From: Lachnospiraceae bacterium
Lineage (GTDB): Bacteria; Bacillota; Clostridia; Lachnospirales; Lachnospiraceae
Direction of reading: 5' to 3'
Length of the DNA stretch: 35,565 bases
Assembly: GCA_900199595.1 (NCBI GenBank)
Contig: FZRB01000029.1
Coordinates: 1 to 35,565, forward strand
A program made the position numbers and the translations under genes. The notes below the pieces were generated by a model. That model searched no databases. It saw nothing but the letters and a program-made list of their open reading frames with translations, and had not been told where the DNA came from. Below are positions 29,923-33,618 of this stretch, one piece after another. The stretch's first letter is position 1, and each line of letters begins with the position of its first letter.

Positions 29923-30459
29923 ATGAATAATAGGGGAAAGGGTAAGATAGTAGTTATAATAATTATAGCTTTGGTAATCCTGGCATTAGGTGGGCTTGCC
30001 GCTTACTGGATATTTATGACACCGGGTTATATATCAAGAGATCAGGCTGTTTCAAATTATTATCAGGCTATCAGCTCCGAAGATAAGGAATTATATAAAA
30101 ATACCTGCTATACATCAGCATGGCAGAATAGCTATGCTAATAATACCGCAGGAATAGGAATGGATGCTGCTGTTGACATGGCATATGAATTCCAGTCGGG
30201 AGCAAGCTATGGTGATGTAAAGATTACTGCACTTGAAAAGCTTGATTCATCCTATGCTGATAAAATGGAAGAGAGCATTAAAAGCCTTTATGGCATTGAT
30301 CTTAAAATAAGCGCTATTTCAAAGGTTAATTTTTCAGTAAAAACCACCTTTGAAGGAGCAAAAGAAGATTCCGGAACATTAACAAGATATGTTTATAAAT
30401 CAGGAGGAAAATGGTTTTTCCTTGCTGATCCGGATATAATAGTACTTCTTGATCTATGA
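29923..30459 (+). CDS. Membrane-anchored hypothetical protein with an NTF2-like outer domain
   Basis: 178 aa. Basic start (NNRGKGK), one membrane helix at 9-31 (VVIIIIALVILALGGLAAYWIF), then a roughly 145-residue extracytoplasmic domain: DQAVSNYYQAISSEDKELYKNTCY is like the first helices of NTF2-like or DUF4878-type domains, and GTLTRYVYKSGGKWFFLADP resembles their final strands. No catalytic motif is apparent. AAAGGA lies about 8 nt before ATG, and it begins 12 nt after the fumarase beta stop, so it is probably co-transcribed. The stop overlaps the convergent Rrf2 stop by 6 nt (30454-30459). Confidence 0.75.
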   Translation: MNNRGKGKIVVIIIIALVILALGGLAAYWIFMTPGYISRDQAVSNYYQAISSEDKELYKNTCYTSAWQNSYANNTAGIGMDAAVDMAYEFQSGASYGDVKITALEKLDSSYADKMEESIKSLYGIDLKISAISKVNFSVKTTFEGAKEDSGTLTRYVYKSGGKWFFLADPDIIVLLDL

Positions 30460-30855
30460 TGTAAGCAGATCAGATAGTTTTTTCGAATAAAAGAAATCAT
30501 GAACTAAAGCTTCATATTCAATCCACATAGGAAGGGTTTTACATATACCCTTCCTTTTACATTCATATTTTTTATCACTGAGGCAGGCAACCGGTGACAG
30601 AGGTCCTTCCAGGGTTTCTATTATTTCGCCTATAGTGTATTCTTCCGGAGAACGGCTCAGCTTATAGCCGCCACCTTTTCCGCTGGCACTAATTACCATA
30701 TCGGCATCAACAAGAGTTTTAACAATTATCTCCAGATATTTCTTTGAGATATCCTGTCTTTCGGCCACATCCTTAAGGGGAATCAGCCCATTATCTTTAT
30801 TTTCTGCAAGATCTATCATAACTCTGATAGCATAACGTCCTTTTGTTGAAATCAT
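30454..30855 (-). CDS. Rrf2-family transcriptional regulator with an IscR-like cysteine triad
   Basis: 133 aa. N-terminal winged helix (MISTKGRYAIRVMIDLAENK; recognition helix DISKKYLEIIVKTLVDADMV; wing SGKGGGYKLSRSP). C91, C99 and C105 sit where IscR has C92, C98 and C104, so a Fe-S or thiol sensor is plausible; no His follows C105 at the position of IscR H107. Encoded next to metY-cysK, it could be a cysteine-metabolism repressor of CymR type or an IscR type. GAGG precedes ATG by 7 nt. Its promoter at 30939-30911 is back-to-back with the metY leader promoter, with palindromes between. Confidence 0.9.
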   Translation of the reverse strand: MISTKGRYAIRVMIDLAENKDNGLIPLKDVAERQDISKKYLEIIVKTLVDADMVISASGKGGGYKLSRSPEEYTIGEIIETLEGPLSPVACLSDKKYECKRKGICKTLPMWIEYEALVHDFFYSKKLSDLLTS

Positions 30856-30965: not shown

Positions 30966-30986
30966 GTTATAGGAAAAACCTATAAC
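30966..30986. promoter_or_regulatory. Candidate operator dyad A
   Basis: GTTATAGG-AAAAA-CCTATAAC, perfect 8-bp arms, about 30 bp upstream of the metY leader promoter and the same distance from the Rrf2 -35. Shares the CCTA/TAGG core with dyad B. Confidence 0.55.
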
Positions 30987-31011: not shown

Positions 31012-31030
31012 ACCTATTGACTTAGTAGGT
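31012..31030. promoter_or_regulatory. Candidate operator dyad B over the leader promoter
   Basis: ACCTATTGACTTAGTAGGT: outer arms ACCTA/TAGGT are perfect and inner bases partly so. It covers the -35 hexamer, so a bound Rrf2 dimer would block RNA polymerase. Confidence 0.55.
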
Positions 31031-31045
31031 AAATAATGATAGTAT
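31017..31045 (+). promoter_or_regulatory. Promoter of the metY leader
   Basis: TTGACT (31017-31022), 17-bp spacer, TAGTAT (31040-31045). Transcription would start near 31052, about 48 nt before the leader ORF. Confidence 0.8.
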
Positions 31046-31054
31046 GATGCCATC

Positions 31055-31072
31055 GAAGCAAACAACTGCTTC
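31055..31072 (+). promoter_or_regulatory. Hairpin in the 5' leader before the Cys-rich ORF
   Basis: GAAGCA-AACAAC-TGCTTC, 6-bp stem. It ends 10 nt before the strong Shine-Dalgarno AAAAGGAGG (31082-31091 region). Confidence 0.5.
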
Positions 31073-31099
31073 ACACTTAGAGAAAAGGAGGCGTTAATA

Positions 31100-31219
31100 A
31101 TGAGATATTCAGTTTATGATAATTCCAAAATGTGTTGTCGAATGTTCATCTCCCGGGCATGTAGTATGGCTGGTTTGTTAATGTGTCGATGTAAACGCCT
31201 CGATATAGCTAAGCAGTAA
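31100..31219 (+). CDS. Cysteine-rich leader peptide upstream of metY
   Basis: 39 aa, with 5 Cys (12, 13, 21, 29, 31) and 5 Met, tandem Cys codons TGT TGT at 31133-31138. It has one of the strongest ribosome binding sites in the window (AAAAGGAGG, 8-9 nt before ATG). Codons 17-20 lie in CTCCCGGGCA (31150-31159), which pairs perfectly over 10 bp with TGCCCGGGAG (31230-31239) just after the stop. The latter also forms the left arm of a terminator. This is the layout of a transcription attenuator sensing Cys-tRNA. Not a structural protein; no domain. That it is translated is inferred from the ribosome binding site and codon arrangement. Confidence 0.75.
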   Translation: MRYSVYDNSKMCCRMFISRACSMAGLLMCRCKRLDIAKQ

Positions 31220-31260
31220 CCTGACCATTTGCCCGGGAGCCACAAAGCCCTCGGGCTTTT
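31150..31260 (+). promoter_or_regulatory. Antiterminator/terminator pair of the metY leader
   Basis: Element 1 (31150-31159) and element 2 (31230-31239) are perfectly complementary. Element 2 can instead pair as GCCCGGG (31231-31237) with CTCGGGC (31250-31256), with one G-U pair, followed by TTTTATT. A shorter alternative AAAGCC-CTCG-GGCTTT (31244-31259) also precedes the T run. 1:2 and 2:3 pairing exclude each other. Confidence 0.7.
31231..31260 (+). terminator. Intrinsic terminator before metY
   Basis: GC-rich stem GCCCGGG / CTCGGGC, 12-nt loop, then TTTTATT, 70 nt before metY. As it lies between the promoter and metY, it should lower metY transcription unless prevented from forming. Confidence 0.75.
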
Positions 31261-31329
31261 ATTAACCCAAAAGAAAAAAAAACAGACAAATAAAAAAAGA
31301 TAATATCAAGAAACAAGGAGAATAAAAAA

Positions 31330-32610
31330 ATGAGCGATTACAAATTTGAAACTTTACAGGTACACGTTGGACAGGAAAAATCAGATCCTACGACTGATTC
31401 AAGAGCAGTTCCTATTTATCAGACAGCTGCTTATACATTCCATAACAGTAAGCATGCAGCTGACAGATTTGGTCTTGCTGATGCAGGAAATATATATGGT
31501 AGACTTACAAATTCAACTCAGGGAGTTTTCGAGGAAAGAATAGCAGCTCTTGAGGGCGGAAGTGCAGCACTTGCAGTTGCATCAGGAGCAGCAGCTATAT
31601 CCTATACTATACAGGCTCTTGCAGCTAATGGCGGACATATCGTAGCACAGAAAACTATCTATGGTGGAACCTATAATCTTCTGGAGCATACACTTCCATT
31701 ATATGGAATAAAGACTACATTTGTAGATACTAATAATCTGGATGAAGTTAAGGCTGCTATCCAGGATGACACAAGAGCTATATTCCTTGAGACTCTTGGA
31801 AATCCAAACAGTGATATTCCTGATATAGAGGCTATTTCAAAGATAGCTCATGAGGCAGGTCTTCCACTTGCCATAGATAATACCTTCGGAACACCTTATC
31901 TTATAAGACCTATCGAATACGGAGCTGATATAGTTATCCATTCAGCTACAAAGTTTATAGGTGGACATGGAACTACCTTAGGTGGTATCATAGTTGAGTC
32001 AGGCAAATTTGACTGGTCAGCTTCAGGAAAGTATCCTAATATCGCAGCTCCGAACCCAAGTTATCATGGAGTATCCTTCTATGATGCTGTAGGCCCTGCT
32101 GCATTTGTTACATATATAAGAGCAATCCTTCTTCGTGATACAGGAGCATCTATATCACCGTTCAACGCATTTCTTCTCCTTCAAGGAGTTGAGACTCTGT
32201 CACTCAGACTTGAGAGACATTCTGAAAATGCTAAGAAGGTTGTTGAGTATCTGGCTAATCATCCGAAGGTTGAAAAGGTTAATCATCCACTTCTTGAGGA
32301 TCATCCAAACCATGAGCTTTATAAGAAGTACTTCCCAAATGGCGGCGGTTCCATATTTACATTTGAGATAAAAGGCGGCAAAGAGGAAGCATGGAAGTTT
32401 ATAGATAGTCTGAAGATCTTTTCAATACTGGCAAATGTAGCTGATGTTAAGAGTCTGGTTATTCATCCAGCATCAACCACTCATTCACAGCTTTCTGAAG
32501 AGGAACTTCTTAACAACGGAATCAAGCAGAGTACTATAAGACTTTCAATCGGTACAGAACACGTGGATGATATAATAGCTGATCTTGAAAATGCGTTCGC
32601 AGCTATCTAA
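31330..32610 (+). CDS. metY: O-acetylhomoserine sulfhydrylase
   Basis: 426 aa. A PLP enzyme of the Cys/Met-metabolism family that makes homocysteine from O-acetylhomoserine and sulfide. The Schiff-base lysine is K208 in HSATKFIGGHG. YGRLTNSTQ (56-64) and the phosphate-binding SGAAAISYTIQA (about 85-96) are typical, as are the length and the FNAFLLLQGVETLSLR and HPASTTHSQL segments of the MetY group rather than the shorter MetB/MetC. AAGGAG lies 9 nt before ATG. It is preceded by the Rrf2 operators and the Cys leader. cysK follows 75 bp later, probably in the same transcript. Confidence 0.96.
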   Translation: MSDYKFETLQVHVGQEKSDPTTDSRAVPIYQTAAYTFHNSKHAADRFGLADAGNIYGRLTNSTQGVFEERIAALEGGSAALAVASGAAAISYTIQALAANGGHIVAQKTIYGGTYNLLEHTLPLYGIKTTFVDTNNLDEVKAAIQDDTRAIFLETLGNPNSDIPDIEAISKIAHEAGLPLAIDNTFGTPYLIRPIEYGADIVIHSATKFIGGHGTTLGGIIVESGKFDWSASGKYPNIAAPNPSYHGVSFYDAVGPAAFVTYIRAILLRDTGASISPFNAFLLLQGVETLSLRLERHSENAKKVVEYLANHPKVEKVNHPLLEDHPNHELYKKYFPNGGGSIFTFEIKGGKEEAWKFIDSLKIFSILANVADVKSLVIHPASTTHSQLSEEELLNNGIKQSTIRLSIGTEHVDDIIADLENAFAAI

Positions 32611-32685: not shown

Positions 32686-33618
32686 ATGAGCAAAATATTT
32701 AAAGGATCAACTGAACTTATAGGCAATACTCCTCTTCTGGAGGTAGTTAATATTGAAAAAGAGCTTGGACTGGAAGCAACAGTTCTTGTAAAGCTTGAGT
32801 ATTTTAATCCGGCAGGTAGTGTCAAGGATCGTATAGCAAAGGCTATGATCGAGGATGCTGAAGAAAAGGGTCTTCTTAAGGAAGGATCAGTAATTATTGA
32901 GCCAACCAGTGGAAATACAGGTATTGGACTTGCTTCAATCGCTGCAGCAAAAGGATATCGTATAATTCTTACAATGCCTGAAACCATGAGTGTTGAGAGA
33001 AGAAATATTCTTAAAGCCTATGGTGCAGAGTTGGTTCTTACTGAAGGCGCAAAGGGTATGAAGGGAGCCATCGAAAGAGCAAATGAGCTGGCACAGGAGA
33101 TACCTGACAGCTTTATTCCGGGACAGTTCGTAAATCCTGCAAATCCTGCTATTCACAGAGCAACTACCGGTCCTGAAATATGGAATGACACAGATGGTGC
33201 AGTTGATATATTTATTGCCGGTGTTGGAACAGGCGGAACTCTTACCGGTGTAGGAGAATATCTTAAAGAGAAAAAGGCTGACGTAAAGGTCGTAGCACTT
33301 GAACCGGAGGATTCACCGGTACTGTCAGAGGGCAGATCAGGAGCTCATAAGATACAGGGAATAGGCGCTGGTTTCGTGCCGGATGTATTAAATACTTCTG
33401 TATATGATGAAATCATCAAAGCACCAAATCAGAACGCATTTGATACAGCTAAGCTTCTTGCAAGAAAAGAAGGAATATCCGTTGGTATTTCTTCCGGAGC
33501 AGCTCTCTTTGGAGCAATACAGCTTGCAAAAAGACCGGAAAATAAAGGAAAAGTGATAGTTGCACTTCTTCCTGACAGTGGAGACAGATACTATTCAACA
33601 GCACTGTTTACTGAATAA
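32686..33618 (+). CDS. cysK: Cysteine synthase (O-acetylserine sulfhydrylase)
   Basis: 310 aa. A PLP enzyme joining O-acetylserine and sulfide to L-cysteine. The PLP lysine is K47 in NPAGSVKDRIA, the substrate loop is TSGNTG (74-79), and the phosphate-binding GVGTGGTLTGVG (about 183-194) and SGAA near the end are intact. The FVNPANPAIHRATTGPEIW stretch is a CysK hallmark. ATG follows AAGGAG by 6 nt. It is 75 bp after metY, a spacer that contains only a weak GGG/CCC hairpin, so co-expression with metY is likely. Confidence 0.97.
   Translation: MSKIFKGSTELIGNTPLLEVVNIEKELGLEATVLVKLEYFNPAGSVKDRIAKAMIEDAEEKGLLKEGSVIIEPTSGNTGIGLASIAAAKGYRIILTMPETMSVERRNILKAYGAELVLTEGAKGMKGAIERANELAQEIPDSFIPGQFVNPANPAIHRATTGPEIWNDTDGAVDIFIAGVGTGGTLTGVGEYLKEKKADVKVVALEPEDSPVLSEGRSGAHKIQGIGAGFVPDVLNTSVYDEIIKAPNQNAFDTAKLLARKEGISVGISSGAALFGAIQLAKRPENKGKVIVALLPDSGDRYYSTALFTE

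Follow-up and report, generated by a model that had tools for sequence, protein, structure and literature searches.

The window, that is, the whole analysed stretch of 35,565 nucleotides from a Lachnospiraceae bacterium (GenBank assembly GCA_900199595.1, contig FZRB01000029.1, forward strand), contains metY and a cysK-like gene, presumably co-transcribed with it, which are preceded by a short cysteine-rich leader ORF and, further upstream, by a divergent gene of an Rrf2-family regulator (Table 1). Besides its tandem Cys codons the leader ORF carries additional Cys codons at positions 21, 29 and 31; the original prediction, made from the letters alone, had given the 39-codon frame and its strong ribosome binding site exactly to the base, together with the tandem pair and the three further Cys. 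The antiterminator arm designated element 1 begins 11 nt 3' of the Cys pair and is perfectly complementary across 10 bp to element 2, which begins 10 nt 3' of the stop codon; element 2 pairs also with a downstream segment, element 3, followed by TTTT, a U-tract that is short in the window. Both elements, their 10-bp match and the use of element 2 as the left arm of a terminator had been placed correctly beforehand. The region 31040-31270 (231 nt) folds with -68.9 kcal/mol vs -52.4 kcal/mol for shuffled sequences (z -3.5), and none of the 200 dinucleotide shuffles equals it.

Table 1. Features of the metY leader region and its neighbourhood (window coordinates)
Feature	Position	Strand	Details
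Divergent Rrf2-family regulator gene	30454-30855	-	PF02082, 118.8 bits
Operator-like palindrome	31012-31030	+	ACCTATTGACTTAGTAGGT, overlaps the -35 box
Probable promoter	31017-31045	+	-35 TTGACT (31017-31022), 17-nt spacer, -10 TAGTAT (31040-31045)
Shine-Dalgarno (SD) sequence of the leader ORF	31086-31091	+	AGGAGG, read from sequence
P0, SD-side arm	31088-31095	+	GAGGCGTT, pairs with 31194-31201
Leader ORF	31100-31219	+	39 codons, peptide MRYSVYDNSKMCCRMFISRACSMAGLLMCRCKRLDIAKQ
Tandem Cys codons, proposed stall site	31133-31138	+	TGT TGT, codons 12-13
Conserved CGA ATG (Arg-Met)	31139-31144	+	just after the Cys codons, conserved at the nucleotide level
Element 1, antiterminator left arm	31150-31159	+	CTCCCGGGCA, encodes part of Ile-Ser-Arg-Ala
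Antiterminator extension	31166-31169	+	ATGG (Met-Ala codons), pairs with 31225-31228
P0, anti-SD arm	31194-31201	+	AACGCCTC, Arg33-Leu34 codons (CGC CTC)
Partner of the extension	31225-31228	+	CCAT
Element 2	31230-31239	+	TGCCCGGGAG, common to the antiterminator (with element 1) and the terminator (with element 3)
Intrinsic terminator hairpin	31231-31260	+	element 2 with element 3 (31250-31256), TTTT at 31257-31260, -15.9 kcal/mol
metY, first regulated gene	31330-32610	+	O-acetylhomoserine sulfhydrylase, TIGR01326, 630.5 bits vs cutoff 495.1
cysK-like gene	32686-33618	+	PLP enzyme, PF00291

Related leaders were gathered in two sets. The profile set contains 73 leaders (27 and 29 loci and 17 added places) picked by protein similarity and not by element 2, with one weak place of the window-peptide search and seven weak places of the 24-row profile (E 0.0029-0.0096) left out; two loci, L031 and L221, are repeats of the window and were taken out of the counts, L006 stops at a contig edge and L044 was placed by a fixed string. 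The pattern set contains at least 120 loci from a scan of named genomes with the DNA pattern TGYTGYCGAATGN5YTCCCGGRC, which fixes most of element 1 and leaves element 2 free. With a threshold of E 0.1 the window peptide by itself matched 27 of the 99 genomes searched, three of these matches (L025-L027) being no leaders; the 24-row profile found 42 of 397 genomes of the family (38 of the 334 genera sampled) and 12 of 295 genomes sampled across the order, and a 40-row profile found 36 of the 61 genus genomes, 12 of the 391 sampled within the class and 2 of the 299 sampled within the phylum, where the match other than the window belongs to the same phylum under a different class label. Each of these counts takes in the window's own genome, in which the leader exists in a single copy. 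The good genomes of the genus contained a profile match in 23 of 31 cases, and the match was missing in 25 of the 61 genus genomes, many of them incomplete, including 8 of the 31 good ones.

The pattern loci listed belong mainly to Lachnospiraceae, Clostridia/Clostridiales and Ruminococcaceae/Oscillospiraceae MAGs, as well as to Saccharofermentans, Blautia, Eubacterium and, among isolates, to Clostridium porci and Ruminococcaceae KHP2; the single contigs labelled Phascolarctobacterium, Eggerthellaceae and Succinivibrio may have been binned wrongly. The genome of the cultured Lachnospiraceae bacterium AC2029 has the leader too (L148/L003). An alphaproteobacterial Ruegeria contig (L120), in which element 2 and a sulfur gene are both lacking, was used as a control for chance matches. 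The matching rule was fitted by 21 of 28 further loci (L083-L096 and L217-L230, with L092 and L221 being repeats); the other seven, on reading, contain element-2 and terminator sequence too, core substitutions are found in L088 and L096, and the pairing of elements 1 and 2 is weak in the further loci L094 and L229. In one locus (L123, 1047-1199, minus strand) the leader core occurs twice, 127 nt apart, before one metY, as a tandem duplication, the first copy having a run of undetermined bases within the frame.

The conserved core of the leader peptide is MCC(C)RMxxSRAxxMAG, and the residues N-terminal to the Cys vary. At least one Cys codon within the five codons of the stall slot (-24 to -12) is present in 70/70 distinct profile-selected leaders, a count to be read with the fact that the profile search used for selection itself favours Cys codons, and at least two are present in 66 of them; the SD sequence retains 5 or 6 of its 6 bases in 61 of the 70. 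The distance from the last Cys codon to the Ser codon of element 1 is four codons in 57 of the 70 distinct leaders, three in 6, five in 5 and one in 2, and for the first 80 pattern loci, with start codons assigned by script, the CCRM motif has its first Cys at codon 13 or 14 in 51 cases. The usual ribosome footprint extends about 15 nt from the first base of the P-site. With codon 13 in the A site a ribosome would, according to this size, reach about 31148, just before element 1 at 31150, and the placement of the stall site, given the common spacing of four codons (57/70) and the usual footprint, would leave the antiterminator arm free. The leader appears, from the comparison of sequences, as a short conserved ORF with an SD sequence and tandem Cys codons ahead of sulfur genes. 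The original prediction had named an alignment of relatives as its own check, and in that alignment the frame, the Cys codons, the spacing from Cys to element 1 and the pairing of elements 1 and 2 are all conserved. Such leaders offer a large natural data set for tests of ribosome-footprint geometry.

The pairing between elements 1 and 2 was assessed in the 72 usable of the 73 leaders (69 distinct), with element 2 located via its own consensus, and 94.6% of the cells were paired. There were 21 double-change cells vs a shuffle mean of 3.6 (0/1000 shuffles reach this number) and 16 extra pair types vs a shuffle mean of 10.5, and 0/1000 shuffles reached any of the three measures, statistics that ignore the kinship of the leaders; with the register slid by 1-2 columns, the pairing fell to 55-57%, with 4-6 double changes. 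The compensatory pairs of elements 1 and 2 found in different genera include CTCCCGGACA/TGTCCGGGAG, CTCCCAGGCA/TGCCTGGGAG, CTCCCGGGCT/AGCCCGGGAG, CTCCCGGGCG/CGCCCGGGAG and ACTCGGGCA/TGCCCGAGT. A simple scan that required 9 or more of the 10 pairs (G-U allowed) located element 2 in 61 of the 73 profile-set leaders and missed it in the other 12, one of which is a contig end. Among the matches listed in the pattern set, a partner of at least 9/10 pairs was present in 115 of 121, vs 85 of 6050 shuffled downstream regions (77 of 81 matches for the first 80 loci); the six listed matches lacking it are three contig ends (L163, L188 and L206), the chance match L120, and two, L101 and L130, that fall just short.

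Some of the compensatory changes alter the amino acid; the RNA pairing is followed by SRA of the peptide and, to a lesser degree, by MAG. SRA (CGG GCA) is changed to SRT (ACA) in 12 distinct leaders with A at element-1 column 8, eight of which have T opposite and four a mismatched C; the Arg codon is replaced by Gln (CAG) in four leaders, all with T opposite; and TRA (ACT CGG GCA) is accompanied by CGAGT in element 2. These variants (SRA, SRT, SQA) would represent a clean natural case of RNA pairing dictating amino acids. In a metY tree with 79 rows, drawn from the profile set plus the first 80 pattern loci of at least 120, at least 7 changes were counted in column 8 of element 1 and 9 in its partner column, and the sign test was without power because only 2 independent pairs lie on well-supported branches. 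The extension of the antiterminator is seen in relatives as ATGGC:GCCAT just before element 2, with such variants as ATGAC:GTCAT; over 7 columns 67% of its cells are paired vs 28-45% when slid, and its double changes number 27 vs 21-33 in the slid registers, so the ATGG:CCAT extension is considered as moderately supported by sequence comparison. The gap between elements 1 and 2 is variable in length across the leaders.

The pairing of element 2 with element 3 was evaluated by folding energies. A run of at least 4 U within 50 nt of element 2 is found in 68 of 72 profile-set leaders, a U-tract within 40 nt in 109 of the 121 matches listed in the pattern set, and a usable U-run is missing in two of the 72 (L055 and L067). 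With the first U-run the hairpin has a mean energy of -14.1 kcal/mol (71 leaders) vs -5.7 kcal/mol for shuffles, and with the best U-run one of -16.2 kcal/mol (70 leaders); the latter choice is slightly biased towards the terminator, and with it eight odd low energies obtained with the first U-run disappear. The antiterminator duplex has a mean of -24.3 kcal/mol (71 leaders) and -24.4 kcal/mol (70 leaders), respectively, and the stretch 3' of element 2 alone a mean of -2.2 (first U-run) and -2.9 kcal/mol (best U-run). With the best U-run, the margin of the terminator over the 3'-only stretch is 3 kcal/mol or more in 70/70 leaders, and the antiterminator is more stable than the terminator in 62 of 70; given the weak 3'-only fold and the strong antiterminator, element 1 holding element 2 would leave little terminator in most leaders. 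The antiterminator and the terminator are mutually exclusive structures with element 2 in both, as indicated by covariation for elements 1 and 2 and by the energies for elements 2 and 3. The original prediction had flagged a short 3' hairpin (31244-31250 with 31253-31259, -5.8 kcal/mol in the window) that could change the pairing logic. As a general terminator this hairpin was rejected, and the doubt is largely settled by the means of -2.9 kcal/mol after element 2 vs -16.2 kcal/mol for the hairpin of elements 2 and 3; it stands in part for the 15 of 70 leaders, the window included, in which the 3'-only stretch reaches -5 kcal/mol or better, and in the window the short hairpin could add leaky termination.

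The codons that follow the Cys pair are conserved as nucleotides: CGA is kept in 59 and ATG in 66 of the 70 distinct leaders, the alternatives in the Arg slot being TGC (6), CGC (2), AGC, ATG and CTT (1 each). CGA is rare in the window, with 1 of 116 Arg codons of six window ORFs, and one reading of its conservation is that of a slow codon which parks the ribosome over element 1. Base-pair probabilities in 69 leaders gave no consistent RNA pairing partner for TGTTGTCGAATG. Such retention of Arg-Met goes past the needs of codon counting and would be expected from an arrest peptide, in which the nascent CCRM chain would itself arrest the ribosome on sensing cysteine, sulfide or the redox state rather than tRNA charging; however, the Arg slot tolerates Cys, Ser, Met and Leu, the residues before the Cys are variable, and it is the CGA codon, not only Arg, that is conserved, so this explanation is considered improbable as compared with the sensing of charged tRNA-Cys.

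A further helix, P0, formed by the SD region and the Arg33-Leu34 codons, crosses the helix of elements 1 and 2 and should, therefore, favour termination when the leader carries no ribosome. Elsewhere it is represented by GAGGCGG/CCGCCTC, GAGACGCA/TGCGTCTT and others. In 61 leaders with a clear SD sequence, a fixed register gave 58.5% of paired cells, the best of 11 tried (the others gave 33-50%), with 45 double-change cells vs 28 in shuffles (0/1000 shuffles reach this); P0 is clear only in a subset, namely in 30 of 68 leaders, for which at most 3 of 60 shuffles were as good. The putative SD:anti-SD helix crossing the antiterminator, the CGA codon and the palindrome at the -35 box are newly recognised here, beyond the original prediction.

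The genes downstream of the leader were identified as the longest ORF starting within 600-700 nt, a rule by which the genes assigned to L052, L021 and L160 may not be the first ones. For the 72 profile-set leaders with an ORF, here with a limit of 700 nt, there were 47 genes of metY/CGS type, 13 cystine-type binding proteins, 3 methyltransferases (TIGR00027), 2 ssuA (TIGR01728), and one gene each for a glycyl radical enzyme and of the PepT-like (TIGR01883), GST-like, ABC permease, cysK, LysR and cyclase-like kinds; the GST-like, permease, cysK and cyclase-like labels were assigned by eye, and the LysR and cystathionine models scored below their cut-offs. Of the pattern loci listed, 107 of the 111 with an ORF match gene groups of the sulfur set by BLAST (67 metY/CGS, 33 binding protein, 5 permease, 1 PepT-like and 1 cysK), three of the 33 binding proteins at only 24-30% identity; the four unmatched are L120 (chance), L160, L211 (a dehydrogenase by eye) and L141, and 9 listed loci were too short for a downstream ORF. 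The cystine label of the binding proteins rests on family resemblance, as exemplified by L018, for which amino acid binding families scored below curated cut-offs and PRK11260 (cystine) was second with 78 bits. The leader is not special to metY and would mark a regulon comprising metY, cystathionine synthase/lyase-type genes, cystine-type and sulfonate ABC transporters, and cysK. The L048 leader stands before a glycyl radical enzyme ORF, extending beyond the locus end, with the best match to (2S)-3-sulfopropanediol dehydratase (NF048011, 705 bits, below the cutoff of 1000), which suggests that the cysteine regulon can extend to sulfonate breakdown. In L030 a methyltransferase is followed by a MetQ-like start (by eye), and in L160 the leader lies about 530 nt 5' of a glutamate-cysteine ligase-like gene (by eye).

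The same gene context bears on a general sensor of translation stress similar to the antibiotic-inducible leaders, for which any slow ribosome would trigger antitermination. The design would indeed answer any stall 5' of element 1, where the rare CGA sits, but the genes downstream are mainly sulfur genes and none of those classified was of the ABC-F, Erm or efflux kind; besides, every distinct leader has a Cys codon in the stall slot, though in a set whose profile search favours Cys. Such a sensor is given hardly any credence beside a cysteine-specific attenuator.

No Rfam family matched the leader in the searches with the window, with the leader at a lax threshold and with 20 related loci. 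The leader does not fall into the T-box class (RF00230), since between 30860 and 31340 no Rfam match was obtained up to E 5 except STnc150 (E 1.9, 13 bits vs the gathering score of 60); in Pfam and NCBIfam no family was found for it, with three stray single-member matches at E 0.06-0.1. A ligand-binding riboswitch or a protein-binding leader with an incidental ORF would agree with the strong nucleotide conservation, including TGTCGAATG, and with the good fold (z -3.5), but is most improbable in view of the lack of a matching Rfam family, the strong SD sequence, the open frame and the nearly constant number of codons between Cys and element 1, as opposed to the variable distance from element 1 to element 2.

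The conserved ORF, the Cys codons, their spacing, the compensatory pairing, the terminator and the gene context point to a cysteine-responsive, ribosome-mediated transcription attenuator sensing charged tRNA-Cys, to which we assign a probability of about 0.88. The attenuation proposed in the original prediction is supported by the comparison of relatives in respect of the frame, the Cys codons, the spacing, the compensatory changes in elements 1 and 2, and the genes downstream, mostly those of sulfur amino acids; from the same design we infer the stalling, the direction of the response, the state without translation and the co-transcription of the cysK-like gene. RNA polymerase would start at about 31050 and transcribe the leader, on which a ribosome would load at the strong SD sequence. 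With scarce Cys-tRNA the ribosome would stall at codons 12-13, its leading edge, for the usual footprint, being just before element 1, and element 1 with its ATGG extension would pair with element 2, no terminator would form and metY-cysK would be read; with plentiful cysteine the ribosome would run over element 1, elements 2 and 3 would pair and transcription would stop. On a leader free of ribosomes P0 would form first and separate element 1 from element 2, and termination would be favoured. Since element 2 can have a single partner and P0 crosses the helix of elements 1 and 2, the leader may operate as a three-state switch, with the untranslated state off (termination), the Cys-starved state on (read-through) and the Cys-fed state off (termination). 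The complete scheme, in which such a three-state attenuator is combined with CGA as a pace-setter over element 1 and the module has spread through Clostridia as a regulon replacing the cysteine T-box, is tentative and rather doubtful as a whole.

Firmicutes are known for T-boxes rather than for leader-peptide attenuators, and the attenuator, if true, would be a regulon-scale exception among them, concerning many gut and rumen Clostridia, and would name a cysteine-supply switch in anaerobes that are abundant and whose sulfur metabolism is of importance to their hosts. The E. coli trp attenuator has tandem codons for the sensed amino acid and alternative antiterminator and terminator helices, and the SD sequence of trpL is blocked by distal leader RNA. 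The clostridial leader is alike in the tandem codons, the alternative helices and, through the putative P0, the SD sequence blocked from the distal part; however, the order of SD arm, element 1, anti-SD, element 2 and element 3 makes the SD helix cross the antiterminator, unlike in trp. The mechanism class is known, whereas a search of the literature brought up neither the leader family nor its range of taxa and genes nor the crossing SD helix. The same search, which covered few subscription papers, gave no description of a cysteine leader peptide from Clostridia.

The closest system appears to be uORFC-8-2 of cysS in Rhodobacterales, which, in the available part of its description, is a short uORF with tandem Cys codons, usually 14-15, and a 3' U run, for which stalling at low Cys-tRNA and subsequent read-through have been proposed (PMC8632094). 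It is alike in the short uORF, the tandem Cys, the terminator-like U run and the stalling at low Cys-tRNA, but it is described there only before cysS and in one alphaproteobacterial order, whereas the clostridial leader is found at many sulfur genes; moreover, by comparison of descriptions only, its first stem contains the Cys codons, in contrast to the clostridial element 1 lying 11 nt past them (PMC8632094). In mycobacterial cys operons, polycysteine leaderless sORFs have been reported by Canestrari et al. 2020, as cited in the accessible text of PMC9094748 and PMC13236596, the latter using the term translation attenuation, and had been predicted earlier with a run of Cys codons close to the stop codon and without a conserved terminator hairpin, as far as the available portion of that paper goes (PMC1262725). 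These share with the clostridial leader a Cys-rich ORF before sulfur assimilation genes and cysteine-responsive attenuation; the latter differs in being SD-led, with Cys at codons 12-13 of 39 and an intrinsic terminator, and does not belong to the CysLP type as those excerpts present it.

In C. perfringens, cysK-cysE, cysP1, cysP2 and ubiG are under a cysteine T-box (PMC2940859, available part), which resembles the clostridial leader in the sensing of Cys-tRNA, in premature termination 5' of sulfur genes and in the same class of bacteria, but the tRNA is bound there directly by RNA and no ORF is described in that part, unlike in the clostridial leader. Four T-box matches, one above the cut-off, were found in the window's own genome, none of them before a sulfur gene (by eye). 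The histidine leader peptides of hisS/hisZ in bacilli, classical ones that replace T-boxes, are Firmicutes leader peptides too, though for histidine in bacilli and not for cysteine in Clostridia with transport and biosynthesis genes; before predicting them, the authors, writing in 2010, knew of no leader-peptide attenuator beyond Proteobacteria and Actinobacteria, ermC aside (PMC2965389, available part).

Transcription of the leader probably has a second control layer, an Rrf2-type repressor, as suggested by the conserved palindrome over the -35 box. The TTGAC of the -35 sits within this palindrome; the pattern ACCTATTGACNNNNTAGGT, with at most 3 mismatches, is found 5' of 63 of the 73 leaders and in 0 of 73 single shuffles, a similar Rrf2-type gene is located divergently 5' of the leader in 6 other loci, and the palindrome ACCTATTGACTTAGTAGGT is probably bound by an Rrf2-family (CymR-like) regulator. 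A perfect palindrome, GTTATAGG-AAAAA-CCTATAAC (30966-30986), lies between the Rrf2 gene and the metY promoter and is possibly the site of a second regulator; the similar AATAGGAAAAACCTATT occurs 5' of the boxes in L030, L075 and L076. The same window carries, apart from this region, a Clostridiales-1 RNA (RF01699; 9467-9634, minus strand, 121 bits). The loci L055, L070, L072 and L077 have upstream ATAAGNAAAANTTAT palindromes, which we take to be reminiscent of LysR-type sites, and the last three of these loci are without the ACCTA box.
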